Source: Peribolospora baueri (lineage: Eukaryota; Basidiomycota; Peribolosporomycetes; Peribolosporales; Peribolosporaceae). Taken from it: a stretch of DNA of 64,000 nucleotides. The position numbers and the translations under genes were made by a program. Shown here one piece after another: positions 7,029-58,598 of this stretch (the first letter of the stretch is position 1; each line of letters starts with the position of its first letter). The notes below the pieces were generated by a model. That model was not told the DNA's origin, searched no databases, and was given only the letters and a program-made list of their open reading frames with translations. The stretch is from assembly GCA_029717555.1 (NCBI GenBank), contig JAMDHS010000065.1:56637-120636 (forward strand), given 5' to 3'.

Positions 7029-8905
7029 ATGCACCGAAAGCCAGCGCCCACGTTCCTCCCTCCCTTCTCTTCTCTTCCCTTCGCCTCTGCTTCTCCACCT
7101 CCAATCTCCCCCGTCGACCCTTTCGACGACGCCCACCACCCCGCTCCCTCGCCCCGCCGCCCTCTCCCGCTCCAAAGCCCCTACGCTCCCCAACAGCAGT
7201 CGCAGCCGGCGGCGGGCGACATGGACAACCTTTACCCTTCTTCTTACGCCGACTACGCTTCCACCCCACCACAGCCCTCTACTTCGGCTCCCCTCCGCCG
7301 CTCCCTCGCCATCGACGACCAGGCCTCCGCCGCGCTCGCAGCTCAGATTCATGCCCGATTCGGTGGCGGCCCGGCCTCCAGCTCCGTGGACGTCGGCAGC
7401 ACGCCTCCTCCGGGAGACGCTGGTCCCGGCGGCTACGACTACCCGGCACCGTCGGGTTTTGGATACGGATACGGTGCGAACGCCTATGCTGGAGTAGGAG
7501 TAGGACAGGGACACGGACAGGGACAGGGCGTGTTCGAACCGGAGGAGGGCAGCGAGGATGGGAGCTACGACGGGGAACATGTCCTGCACGCTGACGACGA
7601 GGAGCGCGCTTTGACCGCCGGCCACGGTTTCCCTCCGCCGGTGCACGAGCACGATCTTTACGATGAGAAGAGCGCCCTTCAGGCCGTCCCGTCGCCGTAT
7701 GAGTGGCCCTACGTTTCCTCCGAGCAGCATTCCACATCCCCCCCGCCCATGTCGCCGACGGCAGGCGACGACCCGTACGCAGACCCGGATCCGTACGGTG
7801 AACGCAGACGCTCAGGCTCGCCCGTCAGCTCTCATACCTCTGATCCCAGTACCACCCTCGCCCACGGAAATACGCAACATTTCGGGCCTGCGCCTCTGCC
7901 CGGGGCCCAGATCCGGCGACACAAGTCAAAGAAGAAGGTACAGCTTACGCACGGCAACCTCGTTCTCGACTGTCCTGTGCCCACCAAACTCGCCGGCTTC
8001 CTCAGCCGACGCTCCGAGGAGGAGTTCGTGTGCATGCGCTACACCGCTGCCACCTGCGATCCAGACTCGTTCGCTGGAGACAACTTTTCCCTTCGGCCAC
8101 AGCTCTTGAACCGCCACACCGAGCTGTTCATCTGCATCACGATGTACAATGAGGATGAGAAGCTCTTCACGCGCACCCTTCACGGCGTCTTCAAGAACAT
8201 CGCCCACCTCTGCACGCGCAACAAGAGCAGGACATGGGGGCCAGAGGGGTGGAAGAAGGTGGTGGTCGCCATCGTCGCCGACGGTCGCAGGCACATCCAC
8301 CCGCGCGTGCTCGACTGTCTCGCCGCGTTGGGCGTCTACCAAGATGGGGTGGCGAAGAACATGGTGAACGGCAAAAAGGTGGAGGCGCACATCTTCGAGT
8401 ACACCACCCAGCTCTCCATCGACGAGAACCTACAGTTCAAGGGCGCCGAGCGAGGGCTCGTGCCCATCCAGATTCTCTTCTGCCTCAAGGAGAACAACGC
8501 CAAGAAGATCAATTCGCATCGCTGGTGCTTCAACGCTTTCGGCCCTCTCCTCCAGCCCAACATCTACATACTCCTAGACGTCGGCACAAAGCCGGCCAAC
8601 AAGAGCATCTACTACCTCTGGAAGGCCTTTGATCTCAACTCCAACGTCGCCGGTGCCTGCGGCGAGATCTGCGCCGAAGTGAAGGGCAAGTGGGGCATTG
8701 GACCCTTGCTACTCAACCCGCTCGTCGCGGCACAGAACTTTGAGTACAAGATTAGCAACATTCTCGATAAACCCACGGAGAGTGTTTTTGGATACATCTC
8801 GGTCTTGCCAGGCGCTTTTTCCGCGTACCGGTGAGTGGCAGGCGAGGACTGACGGCGGCGCGGTCTGGCCCCCCTGGCTGCACATTACTCACGACGCCCA
8901 TTTGT

Positions 8906-30693: not shown

Positions 30694-31534
30694 AGAGCGC
30701 AAACATTCTCCCTTATATCTTCTCTCCGTCGTCTCCGCCAGTCGGACCGTGGGTCCTGCGTGCTCCCTCTTCGCCCTGTCCGCCGCGTTCTCAAAGGTAC
30801 ACACGATCGCCTCTTATCCCGCCTCATCTCCCGTCGTCTGTAATATTATGAAATTTGCTAGCCAAGGACCACACCGTCGTCCCGCCAGTCGGACCGTGGG
30901 TCCTGCGTGCTACCTCTTCGCCCTGTCCGCCGCGTTCTCGAAGGTGCACACGATCGCCTCTTATCCGCCCCATCCTCCGTCGTTCTGTCGTCTTCAGTAT
31001 TATGAAATTGCTAGCCCAATGCAGAGTTTCCGACGTGCGCGCCCGTTTTCACAGCGTTCTTATCAATTTTCATAGTTGGCAAAAATATGACTCGGATTTT
31101 CCATGATTAATTCAATTTCACGATTCGACGGTAATACGTTTGTTTCCTTTCTTTCGATGGGCCATGAATGTGTAAGCTCGCCTCGTCACGGTTCGAAGGA
31201 GAGAGAGAGCATCTGACCCGCGCGTGTCCGGCTATGAGCGCGTATGTGTGCAGTCGCCGAAACCTTCCATCGGAACTTAATTAACGTTGCTTTGCTCGGA
31301 CCCCCAACCGCTGTCGGCAATTTTCCCGCCCATCCATCCATCCCGCTTCGCCACCATCGACCGTCATCCCCGTCTTCTCTTTCGTGTTCTGCGTTTGATA
31401 CACACCGCTCCCGACCCCGGCGCTCGTCCTATCCTTTCGTTTCATTCGTTTCTTTTTTTATTGCAAACAGGTACAACAGAAAGGAAAAGATAAGGGATCG
31501 CGCGAGGGAACAAGGAGCGACATTGGACGCGGAA
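30694..31534. other. Intergenic region with a tandem duplication
   Basis: The left part (30737-31018) is filled by two diverged copies of a 147-bp unit, listed separately. The rest (31020-31534) is the upstream flank of the mosaic-protein gene, with no clear promoter element. No gene seen. Confidence 0.5.
30737..31018. repeat. 147-bp tandem duplication
   Basis: A unit beginning gccagtcggaccgtgggtcc at 30737 is repeated from 30884. The copies share long identical blocks (cgccctgtccgccgcgttct, cacacgatcgcctcttatcc, tattatgaaatt, gctagcc) with scattered substitutions and small indels. The first copy lies just after the stop of the Vip1-like gene and may form part of its 3' UTR. Confidence 0.9.
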
Positions 31535-34500
31535 ATGACCGACCTGCCGATCTTACAAGGCCCCATTATGAGCCTGGAGCGCGTCCTGAGCTACTTTCCC
31601 GATCTCGATGCTGTCGACCCGCACTTCTTCAAGCAGCCAAAGGTGAGGCAATGTGTGTTCGTTTGCGAGTCGGAGAGTCTTCTCCCTCCACTTGGTCGGC
31701 TCGGCCCGGCGCTGCCGCTCATTTGGCTCTCGTTTCTCGCTTTCCCTTTTCCCAATCCAGGGTGCAGCCGGCGCGTACATATATTCCATGACGAAGCAAA
31801 AGGCGGTATACGAGGTTGTGGAAGGGCGCATTAAGGCTGAGGACGGGTACGGATTTGTGTAGGTGACCGAAACATGTCTTGCCTGGCCTGTCCCATCCCT
31901 CTTCTGAAGTGCGAGCGCTCTTTTGCTTATCTGCGTCGCCGTCATGCCGCTCTGCAGACGAGTGCATCGGTGTCTCTTGCGCTTCAATCCGAAGAAGGAC
32001 ATGAATCTGGTCGGTTGGGGTGATAGTACCACCGGCATCCTGGATGCCGAAATGCTCGCCGCTCTCTCCTTTCTACTTCAGCTGGCTCGCGATAGGAAGA
32101 TCTTTATTCCAGTCGACCGCCGCATGCCCATCGGTCGTGCCCGCCAGGTCGCAGAGGAGCAGAAAGCCAGGGATGCCGTTCTTCAACATGTTCGACGCAA
32201 GGTAGGGAATGTCGGCAATACGGGACCTTCCTCGACGGATTCCACCTCTTCGGTCGAATCTTCTTCCTGTCGACCCAGTCATCAAGAAGACAACGACGAC
32301 ACGAACGACGTTGACGCATATCTCGCCAGCATCGCTCAGAACACTGATCAAGGAAGCCTCGATGCGATGCAAACATCCTCGAAGCAAGCCGTTAGTGAAA
32401 ATGCCGTTACGGCGGCGAGCTCAGCGCCGATAGATTTGACCGGTCCTAGCTCGCCTGAGGTACGCTCGCGCACGCATACAGCCTCATCCGGCCAATTACT
32501 CCAGTCCCCAGGAGCGACCACCCATCCCCGTCTTAGGAGTGATGCGTACATAGCTATACAAAGGCTTAAGGCAGTCACTATGAGTTCACCTTCGGCCGCC
32601 ACCCAATCCCGCCCGACTGCTGCAGAGGCGCAGAATGGAGTCGAATCGCGGCATGATCGCCAATCCATGGACGGACGCCGCGATGCAGGCGAACGTGCAG
32701 ATCGAACCTCAGAACACAGCCCTCGGCTTTCAACCGCAAGGGCATCGGATCCTCGCCCACCTGCAAATGTATCGGATCCCCACTCAACCGCAAAGGCATC
32801 AGATCTTCGCTCACCTGCAAAGGTATCGGATCCTCACTTACCTGCAAAGGTATCGGATCCTCACTTACCTGCAAAGGTATCGGATCCCCACTTACCTGCA
32901 AAAGTATCGGATCCTCACTTACCTGCAAAGGTATCGGATTCCCACTTACCTGCAAAGGCATCGGATCCTCACTCACCTGCAAAGGTGTCGGATCCTCACT
33001 CAACTGCAAAGGCATCGGATCCTCACTCAGCCGCAAAGGCATCCGATTCCCACCCTTTACCTCCATCAAACCGCCCTCACGCGGAGGGTCCCATTTTCAC
33101 GGGCCCTTTCAACGACCGTGAAACCGTAGTGTGGTGCCTCCGGTACCTCAAAGCGTCTATTTCTGAAGAACCGGTCAAGGACTTGCAAGACTATCTCAGA
33201 GTGATGAAGCTCAACAAGCTGGAGGACCTTATCGAAACCGAGAGGGGGTGGTACAACGGGAAGAGGGCATGGAGGTGCGCGAACTCGGATTGGGAAAAGG
33301 CCCTCTGTTTCTGTCCGTCATTGACTCATTTCCGCTTTGATGGCTCCTGATGGCACTGAAGGTCCTTTCTCAAAGTCTATCCCGGTAAAGAAGCGAAGGG
33401 AGATTCTGACGTCAGCCCGTCCGAGTCGCAGTCCAACGCTTGTCTTTATGCCATCTATCTGCTTTATCGGGACGGTTTCTGGAACTCTTATCTGGCCCGC
33501 AGGAAGGATGCGTGAGTCGGTCGCCTCACCCTCTTCATGTGGTTCGTTGAGCGTCAAAACGTGTTCATCGCTCCAGCGTCTCTCCTCCTCCTTCGATATG
33601 CACAGAGAGCAGAAGAGGGGCAGCCTGGAGAACCGTCTGGCCCCTACCGCCGCGCGCAGCAGGCCTCCCATATCGTCCAGCGACAAGGACGCCAATGCGA
33701 CGGACAAGCAGCCCTCTTCGCCTTCTGAAAGCTCCTCCCGAACCCTGGTCTTCTATCCTCCAGTCAGGGACCGTCAGAACGTATTGTCTTTGGCCGGTGC
33801 GGACGGTGCCAAGACCAAGACTCCTTTGATCGACCTGGCTCAGTACTTCCTCGTCCAGCTTAACCAGTCTATGCTCGATTGGTTCGCGACGGCGGAGGGT
33901 ATCCTGGACGGTCGTAGGTGCTGGAGGTGGGTAGTGAGAGTTTGGTATATGCTTCCGGTACGGGCCGGCCGCTGGCTGATCTTCCCTATTGTGCTGCTCC
34001 TAGATCTTTCGTCACAGTATATGCCGACGTTAGTGAGTTGGCAGAGATTTTATACCGCTTCTTCCACACTCGACGCAGTTCGTTGAAGGTTTTGTTTTCG
34101 TCTCCATTGTATCAGGCACTAATGGTGACAGCTTCCGGTCAGCTCGGGAAGCGGAGGAGAACGCAGCACTGGTAGCTTTGATCCTTCTCTTGCGTAAAGG
34201 CAGAGGCCAAGAACTTGCATTTTCTTGCAGCGAGCCTCAGATGCACCGTACCGAGCGCTTCAGGTGTGTCCACGTCTGCTCTGCTTCTCCATTGTCTGGT
34301 GAGGCGGGGAAGGGCTAACCATGCGTTCAAACGGATATTTTTAAATGCGTGCGGCGTCAATGGTAGGGCGCGGCTGGAGGAAGACACGTCGGTATCCATC
34401 CTCGAGGGATATCGCGCACCGCAAGTGTCGGAGGTGTTCATTAGCGGATTTCCCCATATTTCCTTCAAGGATAAAGTCTCTGACCTGATCCAGCGTTACG

Positions 34501-37394
34501 CGAAGGGTCACCACTTCGACGTGCAAAGGACACCGAGCGGAAAATTAATCGCTTTTATCGTCTTCGATAATCCCAGCGACGCGGCCGCCGTCATGGCGTC
34601 CTTCCATGGCTTTCCTTATGCTGGTGCCCGTCTATACAGTCGCTTCCGGGTGGGGAGCGACTCTTCTGGCCCATATGTCAACAACGATGACGCCAGGGGC
34701 GTCATGTCAGCCTCGGAGGGGGCAACTCGCTCGGATTGGCGCTCCAGCACACGTCGCATATCTCTGAAGGTGGATGACCGAGATCTTCCCGACGCTGCGA
34801 GAGATGCCGCCTCCACGTCAGGCGACTATCTTCGCCACCGAAAGCTTTACATCAGCGGTACGTCGGAGCGATCTCAACTTTGACCTTCACTTTCTCCCTG
34901 GAGTTTGGACTCTAAATGGACGTTGCGCGTCTATGGGTCTCCATGCAGGACTTAAGCCTCAGACGACGAATAAGGATATATTCCTGATTTTCAAGCGCTA
35001 CGGACACATTATCTCTACCAAGATCCTCACTCCTCCTGGCGACCGCTTCTCTTGTCGTGGTGATGCGTACTGCGAGTTCCAAAAGGAGCAGGATGCCGAG
35101 CGCGCCAGGGAATCCATGGACGGCACCGTCGCGCTGGGAAACAGGATCGGAGTCACTTATGCCTGGCCTCAGAAGAAGAAGAGCACGGCACTTGGCAGCA
35201 CTTTCAGAGGTGGCGGGGCTGAACCGGACTCCGTCCGTCCTGTGACCGAGGATAGCGGGAGAAGGACTGCAGTGGCGCGTCCTCTTTTTCGCTCTCCTTC
35301 CATGGACACAGAGGTGAGCCGTCTCATCTGCTGTAGGTTGGCCAACCCGTTCTAACGCATCCGACTTACCCTTTATGTCGTTCCAAGTCCCTCGTCGAGG
35401 AGTCCTCGAAGAGAGACTTGAAACGAAAAGAGGCCGATGATTCTCTCTGCAAGACGAGGTGAGGACGTTCCCGAAGAGGATGGTGACCTGCCCAGTTCCA
35501 ATAGCGCTCATCCTTGTTTGTGGCTTTGACTTTCGACCGGGGGCCGCGGCAGACATGGAGATGCGCCGCCGACCGATGATCAGCGAGCTGCGAAGCGGCC
35601 TCGGTCGGCGTCACCTGCTCACTCTATACCAAACGAGCAAGCAATGACCAAGGATGGCGCTTCCTCGACACAGCCTCAAGCGGCTGTGCTCATGGATCAA
35701 TCCGATGGGCTGGCTCTGGCTGATGGCGAGTCGGCAAGAAGCTCAGCTCGGACTGGTCCGTCGCCTGCTCAGTCTATACCAAACGCGCAAGCAATGGCCA
35801 TAGATGGTGTTTCCCCGACTCAGCCTCAAGCGGCTGTGCTCCCGGATCAGTCCGATAGGCTTGCTGATAGCAAGTCGGCAAGGAGCTCAGCTCGGACTGG
35901 TCCTGACATCACCTCATATAAGCAAGTTCTCGAACGCATCGTGAACCAAGTTATGACTATTTATCTCAATGGTAGCAACACGGTAAAGGATCTGAGGCTT
36001 GTTAGCAAGAACATGAACGAAGCGGCGCTGGCGGTTCTTTGGAGAGAGCCTTCAACCGCCCAGCTTCTTTCGTTCGTCTCGCCGGAAGTGCGCTCTGCCA
36101 TGGTATTTGATCCAACCTCGGAGAGCAGGCTCGACAATGGTGCCAAAACCACCAGGGGATCCTTCAGTGCTCAAGCCATCACGGTCACCGCCTCCCCATG
36201 GTCAAGGCATATCAAGGTGATGAGCCATGGATTGTTGCTTCTTTCTGCGTCGCTTGCTCACTTGTCATTTTCATCCTTTCGTACAGAATGTGCAAGCTTC
36301 GGTGCCTTCCAGCTCTCTGGACGCTCTCGCCTCGCGTGCACGGTTCGTCCATACTTTGGTTTTGGACAATTACGAGCTGATCACGGCGCTGGCGCTGCGC
36401 CCCAATCTATTCCCAAGCCTGCGCTGTCTTGATATCACCAAGTTATCTGGGTGTCCAAGGCAAGGACAAAAATCTCAGCTCAAGACCGTTCAAGCCATCG
36501 AAGATGTTTTGCCCTTGTTCACGTCGTTGGAAACGCTCGAACAAGTCGCGTTTGGCTGTGGCCATGACAGCTGTATCACAGCGGCGCGCTCGGTGTCGCC
36601 CATCATCAAGATTGAAGGCGAAGACAGAGGTATAAACCAAGAAATTGTCCAAGATGATGACAACTCAGTCATCGCCGCCAAGATGGACAAGCTCTTCCTG
36701 CGGGTCCTAACCGTCCGCCATCTCAAGGTGCTCGAGTGGAAGGCCAGAGTGGAGGGCAATTGGGTGTGTCCCGTGGAATTTCAGGACGGAGGCCTGAAGG
36801 GCCTTCGGAAGCTTGAAATGAACGCCAACGCTCGTACGATCATGCAAGTGGTAAGTGTCAGGAAACGACCCGCTACTCTATCGGCCTTGGTCGTTGCCGT
36901 TCACTCTCAACGCTTTCGAAACATAGCTTCAATTTATTTACGACGCCAGGACGGACAACCGGCCCCTTAGTGCGCTTCGGGCCATCGTTCTTGATGACTC
37001 GCTTGATCTTGCTCTTGCCATGGTCGCCATCATGGCTCCCAATCTTCGTACGCTCTATGTACGGGCAAAGCAAGCACGTCCTATGGCGGTGAGCGTTTGG
37101 AAATCGCTCGTCGAAGGCACGCCAAATATGTCGGAGGCCGGAATCTGGGTCAGCAACATGCTCGAAGGAGACGACAGGGCGCGCAATGGCGGAGAAGAAC
37201 CCGACGATAGTGGTCTCGCTTTCGAGGACGAGGTCGTCAACGGCTTATTTTCAGTCGAGACTTCGCGTATTGACAAACTGGTGGACGAGGTGGAGAAGGT
37301 ACTCAATGGCTGGACGGCCATTCAAAGGCTCATAGTCAGGCTCGGAAACAGGAAAATCAACAAGTTCCTTAGTCCGGCGCAGGCGCGAGCATGA
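31535..37394 (+). CDS. Large mosaic protein: triple novel module, repeats, two RRMs, F-box/LRR-like end
   Basis: Thirteen exons: 31535-31642, 31761-31858, 31958-33274, 33362-33511, 33606-33926, 34004-34032, 34143-34263, 34367-34857, 34949-35313, 35388-35458, 35553-36216, 36287-36850, 36927-37394. All close in one frame, giving about 1588 residues. Three related modules of roughly 80 residues lie near 40-118, 449-547 and 631-714; each has a W/F-R-x(2-4)-F/L-x-V/R-Y/F strand-like core followed by an Ala/Leu helix (LLQLARDRK, LYAIYLLYRDG, LVALILLLRKG). Residues 328-436 are a 9-residue tandem repeat (KVSDPHLPA type). RRM-like domains lie near 735-810 (EVFISGFPHIS) and 873-953 (KLYISGLKPQ, CEFQKEQDAERARESM). 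Residues 1043-1143 hold a duplicated 50-residue segment. The C-terminus (1145-1588) resembles F-box plus Leu-rich repeats (LVLDNYELITALALRPNLF). Function unknown. Two adjacent genes, the second starting near 35644, is the main alternative model. Confidence 0.65.
32737..33060 (+). repeat. Coding minisatellite, 12 x 27 bp
   Basis: Twelve uninterrupted copies of a 27-bp unit (consensus aaaggtatcggatcctcact plus tacctgc) inside exon 3 of the mosaic-protein gene. Copies 4 and 5 are identical; the outer ones are more diverged. Because 27 is a multiple of three, each unit encodes nine residues (KVSDPHLPA), and the other frames are also open across the array. Confidence 0.95.
35611..35907 (+). repeat. 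150-bp direct duplication in coding sequence
   Basis: Two adjacent copies beginning tcacctgctcactctatacc (35611) and tcgcctgctcagtctatacc (35761). They encode a Ser/Gln/Ala-rich segment containing STQPQAAVLMDQSD and ARSSARTGP. The second copy lacks one codon. Confidence 0.9.
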
Positions 37395-40482: not shown

Positions 40483-43400
40483 TCATTCTCCGGCGAAGAG
40501 TCTCTTGGTGAGATAGGTGGTGCTGCCGCAGAGGCGGATGAAGGCGAGGCCTGCAACGGAGAAAAGAAGGAAAGCCTGTTTCGGCGGTACAAAGAGAGAC
40601 GTTTGCGAGGAAAACAACTTCAGCCCGGGACCTCTAAAATGGACGCCGTTGACGAGTGGAAGAGGTGGGACTTGGGGGCAGATAGATCGGGGACTCACCA
40701 TGTAGTTGGTCACCGTCGCATCCTTGCCATTTGACGTGACTCTGCCGGTGGTGTTGAGGATGGCGATGGCCAAGGCAGCGTTGGAGAGCGTCCAGGCGAG
40801 GACGACGTTGGTGCGCACGGAGCGGTAGTAGTCCGTCTGCTTCGTCTCCGGGTCCACCTTGTCCTCGACCTTGGGCGCCTTGGTGGCGAGGACGTGGCAT
40901 GCGTCGTCGTACGCCTCGTTGATGTCCTGTGCGGAAGATGAAAGGCGGCGGCCAAAACCATCAGCCAAGCTGGGCCGGGCAGACGATAAAAAGAGGTGGG
41001 TTCAAGGACGAGACGTCCGAAACCGACCTTCTGCTCTGTCGGGATGGCCACCTCGACTTGGTTCTTGCCGGCCGTCTGGACGACACCGAGGTCGGTGGAT
41101 ACCTTGTCGGATCCCTTGGTACCCCACGAGACGTCGTGAGTGTTGCAAAACGCGTAGCTATCCAATGGAAGAGAGAGGACGAGGAACGACGACCCTTCAG
41201 AATCAGGAAACGAGCACATGGTCGAATGAGGGACACGAGGAGAAAACAATCCTCTCTCACATATTGATCACGTTGATGAAGGACGGCGCCAGGAGGAGAT
41301 ACTGGAAGAAACTCGTGAGCAGATGCCAAGGGTCCAGCTACGGAGGTTGGAAGACATGGTGGAAGGTAAGCAAAAGGTTCCAGCGGGATACCGTCATGCC
41401 TCGCCCCAGGACGACCGAACAAACGAGACGAGATGAGCGGCGCACGAAACAAACACTCACGAACATGATGCTGGCGACGAGGTAGAGTCCGTAGGTGGCG
41501 ACGAGGGAAATGACAATGTTGCGGAAGATGGAGTTGGAGAACATGTCGCCCACGTTGAACACCCCGCCGTCCTTCTCCACGGCGTCCTTGGCGTTCAGGA
41601 TGCCCTTCACGGCCAGGAAGATGGCTGCGAACTGTGACGCGATGCGGCGCAAAAACCCCGGTCAGCCACGGCCTTCCTTGCCTCCGCATGGACGGCGGCA
41701 TCCGACAAGGAGAGGGAGAAGCTACGCACCGTCATGTAGACGGTGATGAGCGCAAAGGCGATCATCGAGCCCGTGTACCCGACCTTGGAACCCTGCGGCC
41801 TGTTGCCCATGGAGAGTAAAAAGTTGAACACGAGCAGGGCAAGGTAGATGTATTGCAGAATGACGTTCTAAAAGGAGTGGTAGATCATGTGGAAGTGAGC
41901 GAAGCAGGTAGACGAGCAGGTGATCCCCACACGCAAGCACGGGGCCATCGCCGTCGGATGCGACCCGGAGACGGGCGGGCGTTCGGTACTCACAAAGACG
42001 TGGACCCCCTTGAGGCCGAAGCTCGGGTCTTCTAGGGACTCGGTAAGGATGACGAAGGCGATATAGTAGTTACCCTACCCGTCGAGTTCCCAAAACCGCC
42101 GTGGTGACAAAGGCAGGGGCTTCAGCACACGGAGAGCGAAGAACGCGAGGGGAAAAGAAAAAGAAAAAGAAGGCATCGGAACTCACCAGGGCGAACCATG
42201 AAAAGACGAGGCTGAAGACCTGGTAGAGGAGCTCAACGTGGAACCAGAACTTCTGCAGGAAGGAGTGGGAGGAGCGGTAGATGTAGCCGAACTTTACGAT
42301 CGAGTGGACCGAGGCGAAGAAGGAGCTGTTGCAGCGGAGGGAAGGGGACCGAAACGCGGAGATTGCGGTCAGAACGGTGAACGGAAGCCAAGCCTACGAC
42401 TCGCCTAATCGTTTTCCTCTCTACCCCCTCCTCCCCCCCTCCCCCCCAACCCCTCGGGGCCCACCCACTCACCCGTTCAGCCACCTCCTCCTCTGACTGA
42501 TGAGCTCAGGCACCTGATCAGGCACGTCCGTGATGGCATAGGCACTTTTGACGTAATGAAGCACCCAGGCGCAGTCGCGCTTGGAGCAGAGCTCCCAGCA
42601 GAGGATGCGGTCCTCGGCGAGGTACATGTTGGAGGTAAAGATGTCGGCGTCCGAACCACCACCGTGGAGGGTCTCGCCTTTGAAGTATTCGTTCAGCGGA
42701 CCCCGGCCCGTCGCATCGTTCTGAAGGGCGATGTAGCTGTCGAGGGTGGAAAAAACGTAGCAATGACCATCAGCAGGCGCTCCGGGTCGGCGGAAGAAAA
42801 AAAAAGCGGCCGAGGACGACGTACCGATAGGCGGAGAAAGCACCAGGCAAGACAGAAATGTAGCCGAAGACGCTTTCCAAAGGTTTGTCGAGGATGTTGC
42901 TCATCTTGTACTCAAAGTTCTGGGCCGCGACGAGCGGGTTGATGAGGTTCTGGAGATACTTTCCCTTGAGCGCCACGATCTCTCCGCACGCGCCTCCAAT
43001 GTTCGAGTTGATGTCGAACGCCTTCCAGAGATGGTAAATCGAGCGGGGGCCGGGCATGGTGCCGACATCGAGCAGGACGCAGACGTTGGGTTGAAGGACG
43101 GGACCAAAGGCTGATGACGACGGACGCAAAGAGAGGAAGGGACAGAGATGAGGGTGAGCCAAGGAAAGTGCTCGCGGTAGAGATCAACAAAGGGCGGAGA
43201 CGGACCGTTGAAAAACCAGCGATGGGAGTTGATTTTCTTTTGGTTCCTTTCCTTGAGACAGAAAAGGATCTGGACGGGCACGATTCCCTTTTCGGCGCCG
43301 CGGAACTTGAGGTCGGGGTCGATGGAGAGCTGGGTGGTGTACTCATAGATGTGCGCCGTGACCGGCTTGCCGTTCACTACGTTCTTGGCCACGCCTTCTT

Positions 43401-44801
43401 GGTACACGCCCATGGCGGCGAGGGTGCCTGCGTTGGGGAGAAATGAGAGGAAAGGTTGAAGAAGGTGAGGCGACGGCGACGGTGACAAAACCGGAATCGC
43501 CAGAGGCTCGACCACCCACTTAACGTGCGGCTGTTGATCTTCTTGCGCCCGTCGCTGACGATGCACACGACCACCTTCTTCCAGCCCTCCTTGCCCCACG
43601 TCTTGGAGCGGTCGCGGGTGCAGAGGTGGGAAATGTTCTTCATCACGCCGTGCATGGTGCGCGTGAAAAGGCCTTCGTCCTCCTGTCGTTTCGTTTGCCG
43701 AGGTGAGGGACAGACGAAAGGAAGGCGCGACGGTCAGCGGTACGATGCAAATTGAGGGCCTCCCCCTTCCACGGCATCCTCGCCTCGCCTCCACGGACGG
43801 AATGGACAGCGACCGACGCACGTTGTACATGGTCATGACGATGAACAGCTCCGTCCTCCTCGGTGGGTCAAACAAGACCTGCCTGAGCGTGTACCGCTCG
43901 TCCTTGAAGTCGTTGGGATCGCAAGTGGCGGCGGTGTAGCGCATGTGGGTGAACTCGCGCGACTCGCGGTCGGGGACCTTTTCGAGCAGCTTGGACGGCA
44001 CGGGACAGTCTAGGACGAGGTTGCCGTGGTAGAGTCTGCGCAAGACAAGAGCACAAGATGAAATGAGGATGACAGGCGAAGGCGATAGTGAAAAAGGTAC
44101 ACTTCGATGAAACACCTCACTCACTCGACCCTCTTGAGCGTCTTGTACCTCCTCGGCACCCTTTGCGGGATCATGCCGTATCTCACACCGCCACTACTGA
44201 CTGCAGATTCATGTCCGCCAAAATCATGGACGTCGCTGCCTTCTTCCTCGCCGTAAGGATCGTGTGCGGCGGCGATCCTGGGGTCGAAGCCGGCAGGGGC
44301 GAAGCCGTAACTATTGGCGCTCGCCGCGTCACTGTGTTCCCTGGCGCCGCGGGGAAGGAGCCGTCCACGCGCCTGGCCGTCGATATCGTCGTCGTCCTCG
44401 ACCTCCTCCGCTGGCTCAGACGAACGAAAGTAAGGGTTGGGCATGTGATGCGGAGGAGGTTCGCCGGCGGCGGTCGTGTCGTCGAAGTGGGTGGCGGGGG
44501 CGAAGGCGTACTGTCCTCCGCGCTGTACGAGCGGAATGTCGTCGGCTGAGTCTTCGACGTGCAAGGGCCCGGAGCTTTGTCCAACAACATGAGAGGGCGA
44601 AGGAAGCGGCCTCGGGTTCCCGTACACGTCCGGGCCGGCGCCGGAGACGGAAGAGGCGTGCTCGCTGAACGGGTCTGCGGGGTGAGCATAAGGGTTGTGC
44701 GGGGGAGGGGAGACCTGGTGTACGAGGGGAGGGGGCGCATGCTGGTACTCGGGGTACCTCTGGGCCTCGTCGGCCTCGGGGATATAGCTGTAGGAGGACA
44801 T
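40483..44801 (-). CDS. CHS: Chitin synthase B (glycosyltransferase family 2, division 1)
   Basis: Second UDP-GlcNAc-dependent chitin synthase, paralogous to the one at 7029-11335. Fourteen exons: 44801-44125, 44035-43822, 43682-43520, 43427-43206, 43110-42825, 42736-42473, 42325-42187, 42074-41994, 41867-41730, 41631-41461, 41337-41261, 41157-41028, 40926-40699, 40575-40483; about 960 residues. The N-terminal 220 residues are Pro/Ser/Asp rich. Conserved blocks: [62 protein letters not shown] (about 601), then [11 protein letters not shown] and a multi-pass membrane region ending [18 protein letters not shown]. Two donors are atypical (GTCCGT at 43205, GTCGGT at 41027), but alignment to the paralogue supports them. 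A 407-codon frame over 42901-44124 results from introns lacking stops and is not the protein. Confidence 0.95.
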
Positions 44802-55565: not shown

Positions 55566-58500
55566 ATGTCCGTCGCAAATTCCACCTCCGCCGCCACCGC
55601 CACCCCCGCGCACAACACCCTCTCCGCAGCGCCCCCTCTCCAGCGCTCCCTCTCCGGAAACAGTGCCTCGGGCAATACGACGGCACATGTGATCGAAGGG
55701 GACAACGGACGCATTCTTTGCGTCTCGGATGTGCGAGGTGCGTCTTCGAGGGCTCCTCCGTTCTGTTTTTGCTTCCCTGTCGAGCCTTTCCGTGAGGGAC
55801 GACGGCAGGAGAGGGCCGTATAGAGGCACCTCGGACCGTACCTAACTCGTTTCTCTAACCCCCCTCGTCCACGATTTGATCGCCCTTTTCCCTCCCCCTA
55901 ACAGGAAACATCAGCATGCTCAACACGCTGGCAGCCGAGCACGACGCCAAAGCCATCATCCACACTGGTGACTTCGGCTTCTACGAGCTTTCCAGCCTGG
56001 AGCGAATCAGCGATCGGTGAGTCGGCAGGTCGGTCATGCGTCCCATCATCGTCCGAGGGTGGCGGCCCCGCTGACGTGCCCATATTGCTTCGCACCGCTC
56101 CATCGCCCATCTCATTCAGCACCCTCCGCCACCTCGTCCAATACTCCACCCTCATCCCCAACCACCTCCGCACCAAGCTCCTCGCTCCCGAGCCAGGCTC
56201 CCGTCTTGGCCCTGGGGGTGTGCCGCTCAGCTCGGCTAACCTGCGCCGACAGATCACCTCTCACCCTGCGCCCTTACTCTCCGAGTTTCCCATCCTCCTC
56301 AACGGCAAGATCAAGCTCTCGGTACCTGTCTACACGGTGTGGGGAGCGTGCGAAGACGTGGCCGTCCTGGAGCGCTTCAGGAGCGGCGAGTACCGCGTGG
56401 ACAACTTGCACGTTCTCGACGAAGCCACCACGCGCGTGCTCGATGTGGGCGGAGTGAGGCTCAGGCTCTTCGGCCTCGGCGGAGCCGTCGTCTTGCACAA
56501 GCTCTTCGACAACGGAGAGGGACAGGCTACCATCGCAGGAGGGCAGGGCACGATGTGGACGACGGTGCTGCAGATCGGGGAGCTCGTTGACACTGCGCAG
56601 AGGGTGAGCGATTGGCTTTCACCGAGGCGTTCGCTTCCCTTTGCCTATCGTTCTCGATGACGAGCGACGAGCTGACGAGAGAGCGTCGTTGCCGTTTCAC
56701 TCTTCCCATCGTGCCTCTTCGCTTCGGTTTCGACCGTTCGTTCGACGCCTCACAGGTCTATGACCCCACCGAGACGCGCCTGCTCATAACGCACGCATCC
56801 CCTGGCCGCGAAGGTCTGCTCGCTCAGCTCGCCCTCGCCCTCAAGGCCGACCTCACGGTGAGCGCCGGACTCCACTTCCGCTACGGCGTGAGCTACAACG
56901 AGTTCAGCGTACAGCACGACACGGAGAACTATCGCAACAAACTCGTCAGCGCCAAGGCCGCGTTCGGAGAGATTTGGGAAACGGTCCGGACGCAGGTGGA
57001 GGCTGTCATTGAGTGAGTCGAGTCGAGGGCGTGCGACGGACGGGCATCGCGCGTGCGAGCGAGGACAGGACAGGAGATCCAATGTTGACTTTGTTCGCCC
57101 GGTGCGCCGTCGTGTCTCTTTTCTAGCGACAACCAGCGCATCCTGCTCAACAACGCTCTGGCGGTGACGAATCGTGTGCCCCCCCTTTCCACCGCCACCG
57201 GCGCGTCCAACGAGGAGCCGGCGTGGAAGAACACGTGGAACTGGAATCTGCCCGACGCAGCATATGGCAGTCTCGTCCTGGACATTAAGGACGGTAGGGT
57301 CAGCGCCGAGACGAAGAGTCAAGGTGAGCTCACTCGATCGCCGATCGTCGAGTCAAAAACCAGTTCTTTGATCTCTGCGATCTCGCTCGCTCACGTCTTG
57401 GTCTTGTTCCTTTCTTTCCGTCCTAGGATTCAATTTCGCCTATCGCAGAAACAACTCGACCCTGTCCGCCGTTTCTGCCTCTCCTCTGCCCGCCACCAAG
57501 ACTGCGCCCAACGCGGCCCCACCGACCGCCGCGCCCGCCGCCGCTCCCACTTCGCCTGTCGTCAGCAAGGCAGCGGCGGCGCAGCCGGCAAAAGGTCAAC
57601 AGGGTAAGAAGGGCGCCAAGGAGGCGGCCGTGGACGGCGGCTCGACCGCCGGCGATGCGGACGCTGTCAAGCCTCCTCCCTCGGCTCCCTCCTCTACAGG
57701 CGCGCCGACGCCGACCTCGCGCCGGCCTCCGCGAAACCCGTGGACAATCTTCGTGTCCAACTTGAACGACGCGCTTCCCGTGTCCGAGGCCGAGTTGCGA
57801 AGCTTCTTTGGCCCCGCCGCTGCGGGCATCACCAACGTCAAGCTCGTCTTTGACCATTCGCACAAGGGCAAGAAGGGCCCCGCGGAGGAAGGCGGGGGGA
57901 AGCAGGAGCCGAAGCAGCGAGGGATCGCATACGTCGAGTTTGGGGATGAAGAGGCGATGCAGGAGGGCTTGAAGAGGGCTGGGGAGACGGTCAAGGAGGG
58001 GTGCGTGCCCAAGCTCGTCCAGGCTGATCCGACGAGGATGGGCGGCGCGAGTGGGGGGAAGAAGGAGGTCAAGGAGGTCAAGGAGGTCAAGGAGGTCAAG
58101 GAGGTCAAGGAGGGTAAGGAGGGTAAGGATGGGCGGGAGGCAAAGGATGCGAAGGACGCGAAGGACGCGAAGGACGCGAAGGACGCGAAGGACGCGAAGG
58201 ACGCGAAGGACGCGAAGGACGCAAAAGATGGCCGGGAGACGAAGGAGGGCAAGGAGGGCAAGGATGGAAAGGATGGAAAGGACGCCAGCGCGCCTGCCGT
58301 TCCCGCCGCTTCGACTCCGACTCCGACTCCGACTCCGACTCCGACGACTAGAGAGAGCGCCGCCGACGGTGAACCGGCAGCTGCGGCCGAAGAGGGTGCC
58401 GCCGGGGTTGGCGCTCCTGGCGGTGGCACCGGTCGTGGTGGGAGGGGAGGCGGACGAGGTGGGAGGGGCGGAGGAGGTAGGGGAGGTCATGGTAAAGGCA

Positions 58501-58598
58501 AGGGGAGCGGGGGAGGCACGACGAACGTGAACGGCACTGGTCCTGCCGCTGCTACCAGCGGTGGAGGTGGTGGTGGCGAAGGTGGGGAGGCGAAGTGA
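55566..58598 (+). CDS. DUF2433 phosphoesterase-like protein fused to an RRM and low-complexity tail
   Basis: Six exons: 55566-55737, 55905-56016, 56120-56603, 56756-57012, 57127-57323, 57427-58598; about 797 residues. Residues 45-380 follow the calcineurin-like phosphoesterase plan of fungal DUF2433 proteins: GRILCVSDVRGN, IIHTGDFGFY, PVYTVWGACEDVAVLERF, LFGLGGAVV, LLITHASPGREGLLAQLA and LHFRYGVSYNEF. An RRM follows near 460-550 (PWTIFVSNLNDALPVSEAEL, GIAYVEFGDEEAMQEGL). The tail has about five KEV and nine KDA tripeptide repeats, a TPTPTP run and a Gly/Arg-rich RGG-like end. RNA binding by the RRM and RGG parts is likely. Several residues expected to bind metal are altered (SDVRGN instead of SDxHGN, GACED instead of GNHE), so catalysis is doubtful. 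Exon 6 contains a GTAAGA at 57604 that is not needed for the frame. Confidence 0.88.
58147..58224 (+). repeat. Coding 9-bp tandem repeat (KDA)n
   Basis: About nine near-perfect copies of gcgaaggac encode the Lys-Asp-Ala repeat. They are preceded at 58066-58110 by five copies of aaggaggtc (Lys-Glu-Val) in the same exon. Confidence 0.95.

Follow-up and report, generated by a model that had tools for sequence, protein, structure and literature searches.

The window analysed here, a stretch of 64,000 nucleotides from the basidiomycete Peribolospora baueri, contains a putative gene whose product would combine, in this order, three dsRBD-like modules (designated A, B and C), a linker made of a nine-residue repeat, two RRMs and an F-box-like, leucine-rich tail (Table 1). 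The earlier note on this DNA had covered what are now the first seven exons, ending at position 34263. The reading frame passes this point and can be traced to 37394, with a single stop, the TGA at 37392-37394, closing the 13-exon frame. The introns are predictions based on the reading frame, the splice signals and homology across the junctions.

Table 1. Features of the putative gene and of its encoded modules
Feature	Position	Strand	Basis or remark
Putative single gene, 13 exons, 1597 residues	31535..37394	+	Open frame
Exons of the putative gene	31535-31642, 31761-31858, 31958-33274, 33362-33511, 33606-33926, 34004-34032, 34116-34263, 34367-34857, 34949-35313, 35388-35458, 35553-36216, 36287-36850, 36927-37394	+	Open frame
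Module A, dsRBD-like, residues 5-116, core from residue 38; cut by introns 31643-31760 and 31859-31957	31547..32099	+	Match to helicase dsRBD1
Phase-2 intron in module A, splits GT|A (Val)	31859..31957	+	GT..AG ends; four codons upstream of the position in B, C and the helicase
27-bp tandem repeat, 11.6 copies, in frame (nine-residue repeat); linker between modules A and B	32736..33047	+	
Module B, dsRBD-like, extension from residue 445, core residues 473-545; exon end at 33511 in phase 2	33084..33511	+	
Phase-2 intron in module B, splits AG|G (Arg), just before predicted beta-2	33275..33361	+	GT..AG ends
Module C, dsRBD-like, extension from residue 603, core residues 630-702; cut by introns 33927-34003 and 34033-34115	33739..34198	+	
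Phase-2 intron in module C, splits AG|A (Arg)	33927..34003	+	GT..AG ends; shares its alignment column with B and helicase dsRBD1
RRM 1, weak, RNP1 degenerate	34428..34652	+	PF00076, 20.7 bits, E 3.8e-4, just at the cut-off
RRM 2, clear, with intron 34858-34948 inside it	34839..35166	+	PF00076, 45 bits, E 9.8e-12
F-box-like helix and leucine-rich tail	35905..37394	+	Sequence pattern

The tail, from about position 35553 on, is placed in the same gene as the RRMs on the basis of the reading frame. By its sequence pattern it looks like an F-box with leucine-rich repeats; no Pfam family matched it at E values up to 10, and the search found no F-box domain in it. A repeat of about 45 residues, seen by eye, occurs in two copies before the F-box-like part (35553-35905; SPAHSIPNEQAM / SPAQSIPNAQAM) and spans an internal ATG. 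This ATG, at 35644, could be the start of a second gene, in which case the RNA-binding protein would stop shortly past the RRMs and the tail would belong to a separate downstream gene. However, the open frame continues across the intron at 35459-35552 into the tail and on to the terminal TGA, and the protein repeat straddles the proposed start. A single gene is preferred, and two genes are considered a possibility of some weight, though the less probable arrangement.

The 27-bp repeat of the linker might vary from strain to strain. Behind the upstream gene, at about 30727-30980, a stretch of some 90 bases with CCAGTCGGACCGTGGGTCCTGCGTGCT was seen by eye in two copies about 150 bases apart. Elsewhere in the window, the frames 7029-8834 and 42901-44124 encode putative chitin synthases, judged by their sequence, and the open frame 57630-58598 shows a long lysine-aspartate-alanine repeat run (KDAKDA...) after a start that looks RRM-like.

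Relations among the modules and to a helicase dsRBD

One module present three times in a single protein had been described at this locus. Pairwise local scores were compared with those of 4293 natural decoys and 1000 shuffles. B and C are clear duplicates: blastp aligns them with 35% identity over 99 residues (E 4e-18), ungapped at both splice junctions, and their local score of 123 was reached by none of the decoys (0/4293) or shuffles (0/1000). Module A appears related to B and C, more weakly than the earlier note stated, with scores of 42 against B (equalled or exceeded by 6 of the 4293 decoys) and 36 against C (27 of 4293 as good). The threefold occurrence is supported in this graded form, the duplication being clear for B and C and the likeness of A to them weaker.

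A genome search with module B located a further relative on contig C88, in one uninterrupted frame (E 7e-4), whose module scores 76 against B and 75 against C, with 0/4293 decoys as high in each comparison. The gene concerned (L160, G000:C88, 1357-3222) encodes one uninterrupted dsRBD-like module, which is followed by an RRM-like domain; its long tail is rich in proline and arginine. Its RRM-like domain reaches 18.5 bits, slightly below the Pfam cut-off of 20.7, and similarity between this domain and the weak RRM of the 13-exon gene was not found. A phase-2 intron lies 3' of the module if the splice sites have been placed correctly. The module of this paralogue, used in turn as the query in a genome search, found only its own place.

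The closest relative of module A lies in another gene. A search of the genome with PF00035 (Pfam dsrm) returned three places, two of them in one helicase gene and one in an RNase III-like protein. The helicase, which we take to be of the DHX9/Maleless type from its motifs and its PDB neighbours, carries two N-terminal dsRBDs (L004, G000:C129, 1200-2300), and a phase-2 intron cuts only the first of them. This first domain, helicase dsRBD1 (C129:138593-138923), scores 26.7 bits with PF00035 once spliced (cut-off 23). Module A aligns to it with 37% identity over 70 residues (pairwise E 8e-8, or 3e-9 with the preceding flank added), and the score of 69 was matched by none of the 4293 natural decoys, none of the 1000 shuffles and, in a separate test, none of 2000 shuffles. 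Simple triplication of one module does not fit this result: A is closer to helicase dsRBD1 than to B or C, and it may therefore have an origin separate from theirs.

The other comparisons with the helicase are weaker. Against helicase dsRBD1, module C was equalled by 9 of 4293 decoys and 5 of 1000 shuffles, the C88 module was marginal (score 38, 44 of 4293 decoys as good) and module B lacked significance, its score being reached by 3083 of the 4293 decoys. The motif G-x-R-x-[WF]-R is common to B, C, the C88 module and helicase dsRBD1. Module A gave no signal with the second dsRBD of the helicase, where 1871 of 2000 shuffles did equally well, or with E. coli RNase III (589 of 2000). Whole-genome searches were run exon by exon with a loose first pass on the 22.1 Mb assembly of 178 contigs. 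With A and with helicase dsRBD1 as queries (E up to 10), they retrieved only the own exons of each and did not retrieve the other, which slightly lowered our already high estimate for a dsRBD fold in A.

Probable assignment of the modules to the dsRBD fold

The modules had been thought to match no known domain. Most likely, they are divergent dsRBDs, as indicated by the match of A to helicase dsRBD1, the dsrm hit of that helicase domain, the profile comparisons and the PDB matches. Family searches do not name them: at E values up to 10, PF00035, whose cut-off is a detection threshold and not a definition of a dsRBD, matched none of A, B, C and the C88 module; Pfam DND1_DSRM had no match in the modules; and Pfam and NCBIfam gave no credible family, the matches obtained being unrelated (E 0.07-0.43).

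A search with a profile of A, B and C returned a single PDB match at E up to 10, and this was the dsRBD protein DRB3 (E 1.3). When the C88 paralogue was added to the profile, DRB3 was again the sole match over the same range (E 1.6). With helicase dsRBD1 added, the profile gave ten matches at E up to 10, all ten of them to dsRBD proteins, with Maleless as the best (E 4.9e-4). The match of the modules to DRB3 is in register of the last helix. Module C alone found three weak matches, the best again DRB3 (E 0.2) and the others, an ankyrin design and endonuclease III, not dsRBDs. Helicase dsRBD1 alone, an accepted dsRBD, found no dsRBD in the PDB (phmmer, E up to 1); the absence of a PDB match therefore means little, and the modules seem to add to the signal of the combined profile.

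The reference profile was built from 37 dsRBDs, 29 bacterial and eight eukaryotic, with helicase dsRBD1 excluded. The bacterial domains were taken from a phylum sample in which 59 of 60 genomes were matched; 30 loci were kept and 29 used, one (L105) being too short. An earlier bacterial set was unusable, since the 80 loci listed out of 561 were near-identical rnc genes (96-100%). Seven of the eukaryotic domains were transcribed from PDB alignments, and the eighth is the second helicase dsRBD. For comparison, an RRM profile was made from 30 RRM segments of the fungus's own genome, some of them partial.

With hhalign, the profile of A, B, C and the C88 module matched the 37 dsRBDs with a probability of 86.5 (E 4.6e-6; 0/100 column shuffles as good). 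The match runs from column 5 to 75 of 77 in the query and from 6 to 70 of 71 in the template, nearly the full length and within the 65-75 residues of a dsRBD. The probability was 82.6 against the eukaryotic dsRBDs alone and 34.0 against the bacterial ones alone. Single modules gave lower values (C 28.1, A 1.5, B 0.4). Homology to dsRBDs is seen pairwise for A, with helicase dsRBD1, and for B and C within profiles only (62.8-86.5). Against a dsRBD HMM, module C scored 6.8 bits, a value reached by none of its 2000 own shuffles and by 4 of 1231 natural decoys, among which are segments from the E. coli rnc locus and from the 13-exon gene itself (L005, L006). Module A scored 0.5 bits (55 of 1231 decoys as good), and module B alone showed no signal (-4.7 bits, 900 of 1231); the assignment of B consequently rests on C and C88. 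AlphaFold models of B and A were made from intron-retaining single sequences with the stops read as residues, and, with pLDDT values of 44 and 36, respectively, were too poor to inform on the fold.

The first idea about the modules, namely that they are RRMs, came from the segment GYGFVRVHR of module A, which resembles RNP1, and from the two RRMs downstream. The modules would then be degenerate RRMs in a protein with five such domains, and hhalign of A alone did align nine residues with the RRM profile (E 0.002, probability 12.9, 0/100 shuffles). Against this, the four-module profile reached a probability of 0.9 with the 30 RRM segments (7 of 100 shuffles as good), far from its value with dsRBDs; module C scored -3.4 bits with the RRM HMM; PF00076 matched none of the modules; and A aligns to a dsRBD over 70 residues. 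The HMM and hhalign scores led us to reject this candidate, and an RRM identity is now regarded as extremely improbable. It is also very unlikely that A alone is a dsRBD and that B, C and the C88 module represent a truly new fold. The missing signal of B, both alone and against helicase dsRBD1, would agree with a new fold, as would the lack of a Pfam name for B, C and C88 and of an NCBIfam name for B and C. However, a profile of B, C and C88 without A still matches dsRBDs (probability 62.8, E 7.2e-5, 0/100 shuffles; columns 29-71 only), C alone surpassed all its shuffles with the dsRBD HMM, and B and C share both the G-x-R-x-[WF]-R motif, present also in C88, and an intron column and phase with helicase dsRBD1. 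A dsRBD fold is, in our judgement, very probable for A and only slightly less so for B and C. Each module would consist of a helix, three strands and a helix, preceded by an N-terminal extension.

Intron positions within the modules

The three introns that had been reported inside the modules have GT..AG ends and are all in phase 2. The one in module B has a length divisible by three, yet contains an in-frame TGA. An alignment built without regard to introns places the intron of module A at column 81, whereas the introns of B and C come four codons later, at column 85. The statement that each intron falls exactly at an arginine is accordingly correct for B and C, where Arg codons are split, and incorrect for A, where the codon is for Val. 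In B, C and helicase dsRBD1, the codons that are interrupted occupy one alignment column, all in phase 2, the helicase splitting CG|A, and the module of the C88 paralogue has no intron at that position. Phase 2 by itself is unremarkable, being found in six of the first 11 introns of the gene model; the exact codon is what counts.

Shared position and phase had been read as a sign of internal duplication within one protein. This reading holds for B and C, which agree in codon and phase, and does not extend to A; nor is the position private to this protein, since helicase dsRBD1 is cut at the same codon in the same phase. This phase-2 intron, which lies before beta-2, would predate the duplication of B and C, and perhaps also the split from the helicase dsRBD; the C88 paralogue would have lost it, and in A it would have moved or been gained anew. 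Alternatively, the common intron might not be ancestral, and independent insertions could have targeted a preferred splice-like sequence (AG|G) ahead of beta-2. The four-codon offset in A, the intronless C88 module, the AG|G and AG|A splits of B and C, and the frequency of phase 2 in the gene are compatible with this. On the other hand, the intron of helicase dsRBD1 agrees with them in codon and phase although it splits CG|A, and the chance of one exact match in a domain of about 73 codons is estimated at about 1 in 219 under uniform insertion. Independent insertion is thus judged rather unlikely, and an old intron is preferred.

Possible role and comparison with known systems

Type A dsRBDs are characterised by a KKxAK motif in region 3, whose lysines are described in PMC5716075, and a GPxH motif in region 2. 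In sequence, modules A, B and C lack both the KKxAK lysines and GPxH, and for this reason they are not filed as canonical Type A dsRBDs. One arginine is kept near the region-3 position in C and in C88, and helicase dsRBD1 keeps a Lys-Arg pair in region 3. Type B dsRBDs are described as lacking the two region-3 lysines and as binding proteins (PMC5716075). In DND1, the tandem RRMs select RNA, and the dsRBD, which is without some of the canonical residues, is required for reporter regulation and dispensable for binding two of three tested targets; it is thought to bring effectors to the targets bound by the RRMs (PMC9537309).

The RRMs of the protein, chiefly the second, would bind single-stranded mRNA, and the three dsRBDs, having lost the region-3 lysine pair, would act mainly as protein-docking or dimerising domains of Type B. 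Protein recruitment seems likelier because the lysines that grip dsRNA are missing, and together with the Type B and DND1 precedents this suggests that the RRMs hold the transcript and that the modules dock partners or dimerise. We give docking as the main role of the modules an even chance. The modules could instead still bind double-stranded or structured RNA, the front half of the protein taking stem-loops and the RRMs single strands. The fold evidence (the profile match and the match of A to helicase dsRBD1) is in keeping with RNA binding, as are the region-3 arginine of C and C88 and the Lys-Arg pair in the nearest relative of A; the KK pair and the GPxH loop, however, are found in none of A, B and C, and retained RNA binding is considered fairly unlikely. 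Taken as a whole, a multi-domain RNA-binding protein with three divergent dsRBDs before two RRMs, a docking role for the former and an old intron is the reading to which we assign a probability of about 0.65.

As to the partners, two Piwi-domain matches, one of them above the cut-off, lie at G000:C96:14805-15651, and the fungus may thus have retained an Argonaute. The genome also has two places with an RNase III domain; with these, RNAi partners are conceivable. A far more speculative extension, to which we attach very little likelihood, would make such proteins fungal RNA-bound adaptors, in which the RRMs choose the transcript, the degenerate dsRBDs dock partners, perhaps the DHX9-like helicase, whose own dsRBD resembles A, or RNAi proteins, and the F-box-like tail recruits a ubiquitin ligase, marking RNPs for turnover.

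The domain itself is a known one. Novelty appears to lie in the architecture, with two RRMs preceded by three worn dsRBDs and with another gene built on the dsRBD-RRM plan. The matches listed in an open-literature search included no fungal dsRBD-RRM protein and no conserved dsRBD intron. Among known systems, DHX9/Maleless-type proteins are like module A in the sequence of their first dsRBD and like B and C in its intron codon and phase; they are helicases, whereas the present gene has no helicase and its modules lack the region-3 Lys-Arg pair. TRBP, PACT, Loquacious and Staufen are not known to have RRMs. Their Type B dsRBDs have lost the region-3 lysines, as the modules have, and dsRBD5 of Staufen also carries an N-terminal extension; unlike the present protein, TRBP, PACT and Loquacious combine two Type A dsRBDs with one Type B (PMC5716075).

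The combination of RRMs with a dsRBD is shared with DND1, RBM46 and ACF1 of the hnRNPR-like subfamily. DND1 has its two RRMs in front and its one dsRBD at the end (PMC9537309), whereas in the present protein three dsRBD-like modules stand in front. Membership of that subfamily is defined by tandem RRMs and a C-terminal dsRBD of the DND1_DSRM type; the order here is reversed, and DND1_DSRM finds no match. The occurrence of RRMs and a dsRBD within one protein is described as rare and as limited to DND1 and two other hnRNPR-like proteins (PMC9537309), a statement that we take as meant for animals. The reversed order in a fungus, with three dsRBDs and a similar second gene, would mean that the combination arose independently. 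The case would also reveal dsRBDs that escape Pfam and standard domain searches, and the intron position may be of sufficient age to follow dsRBD duplications between a helicase and RRM proteins.
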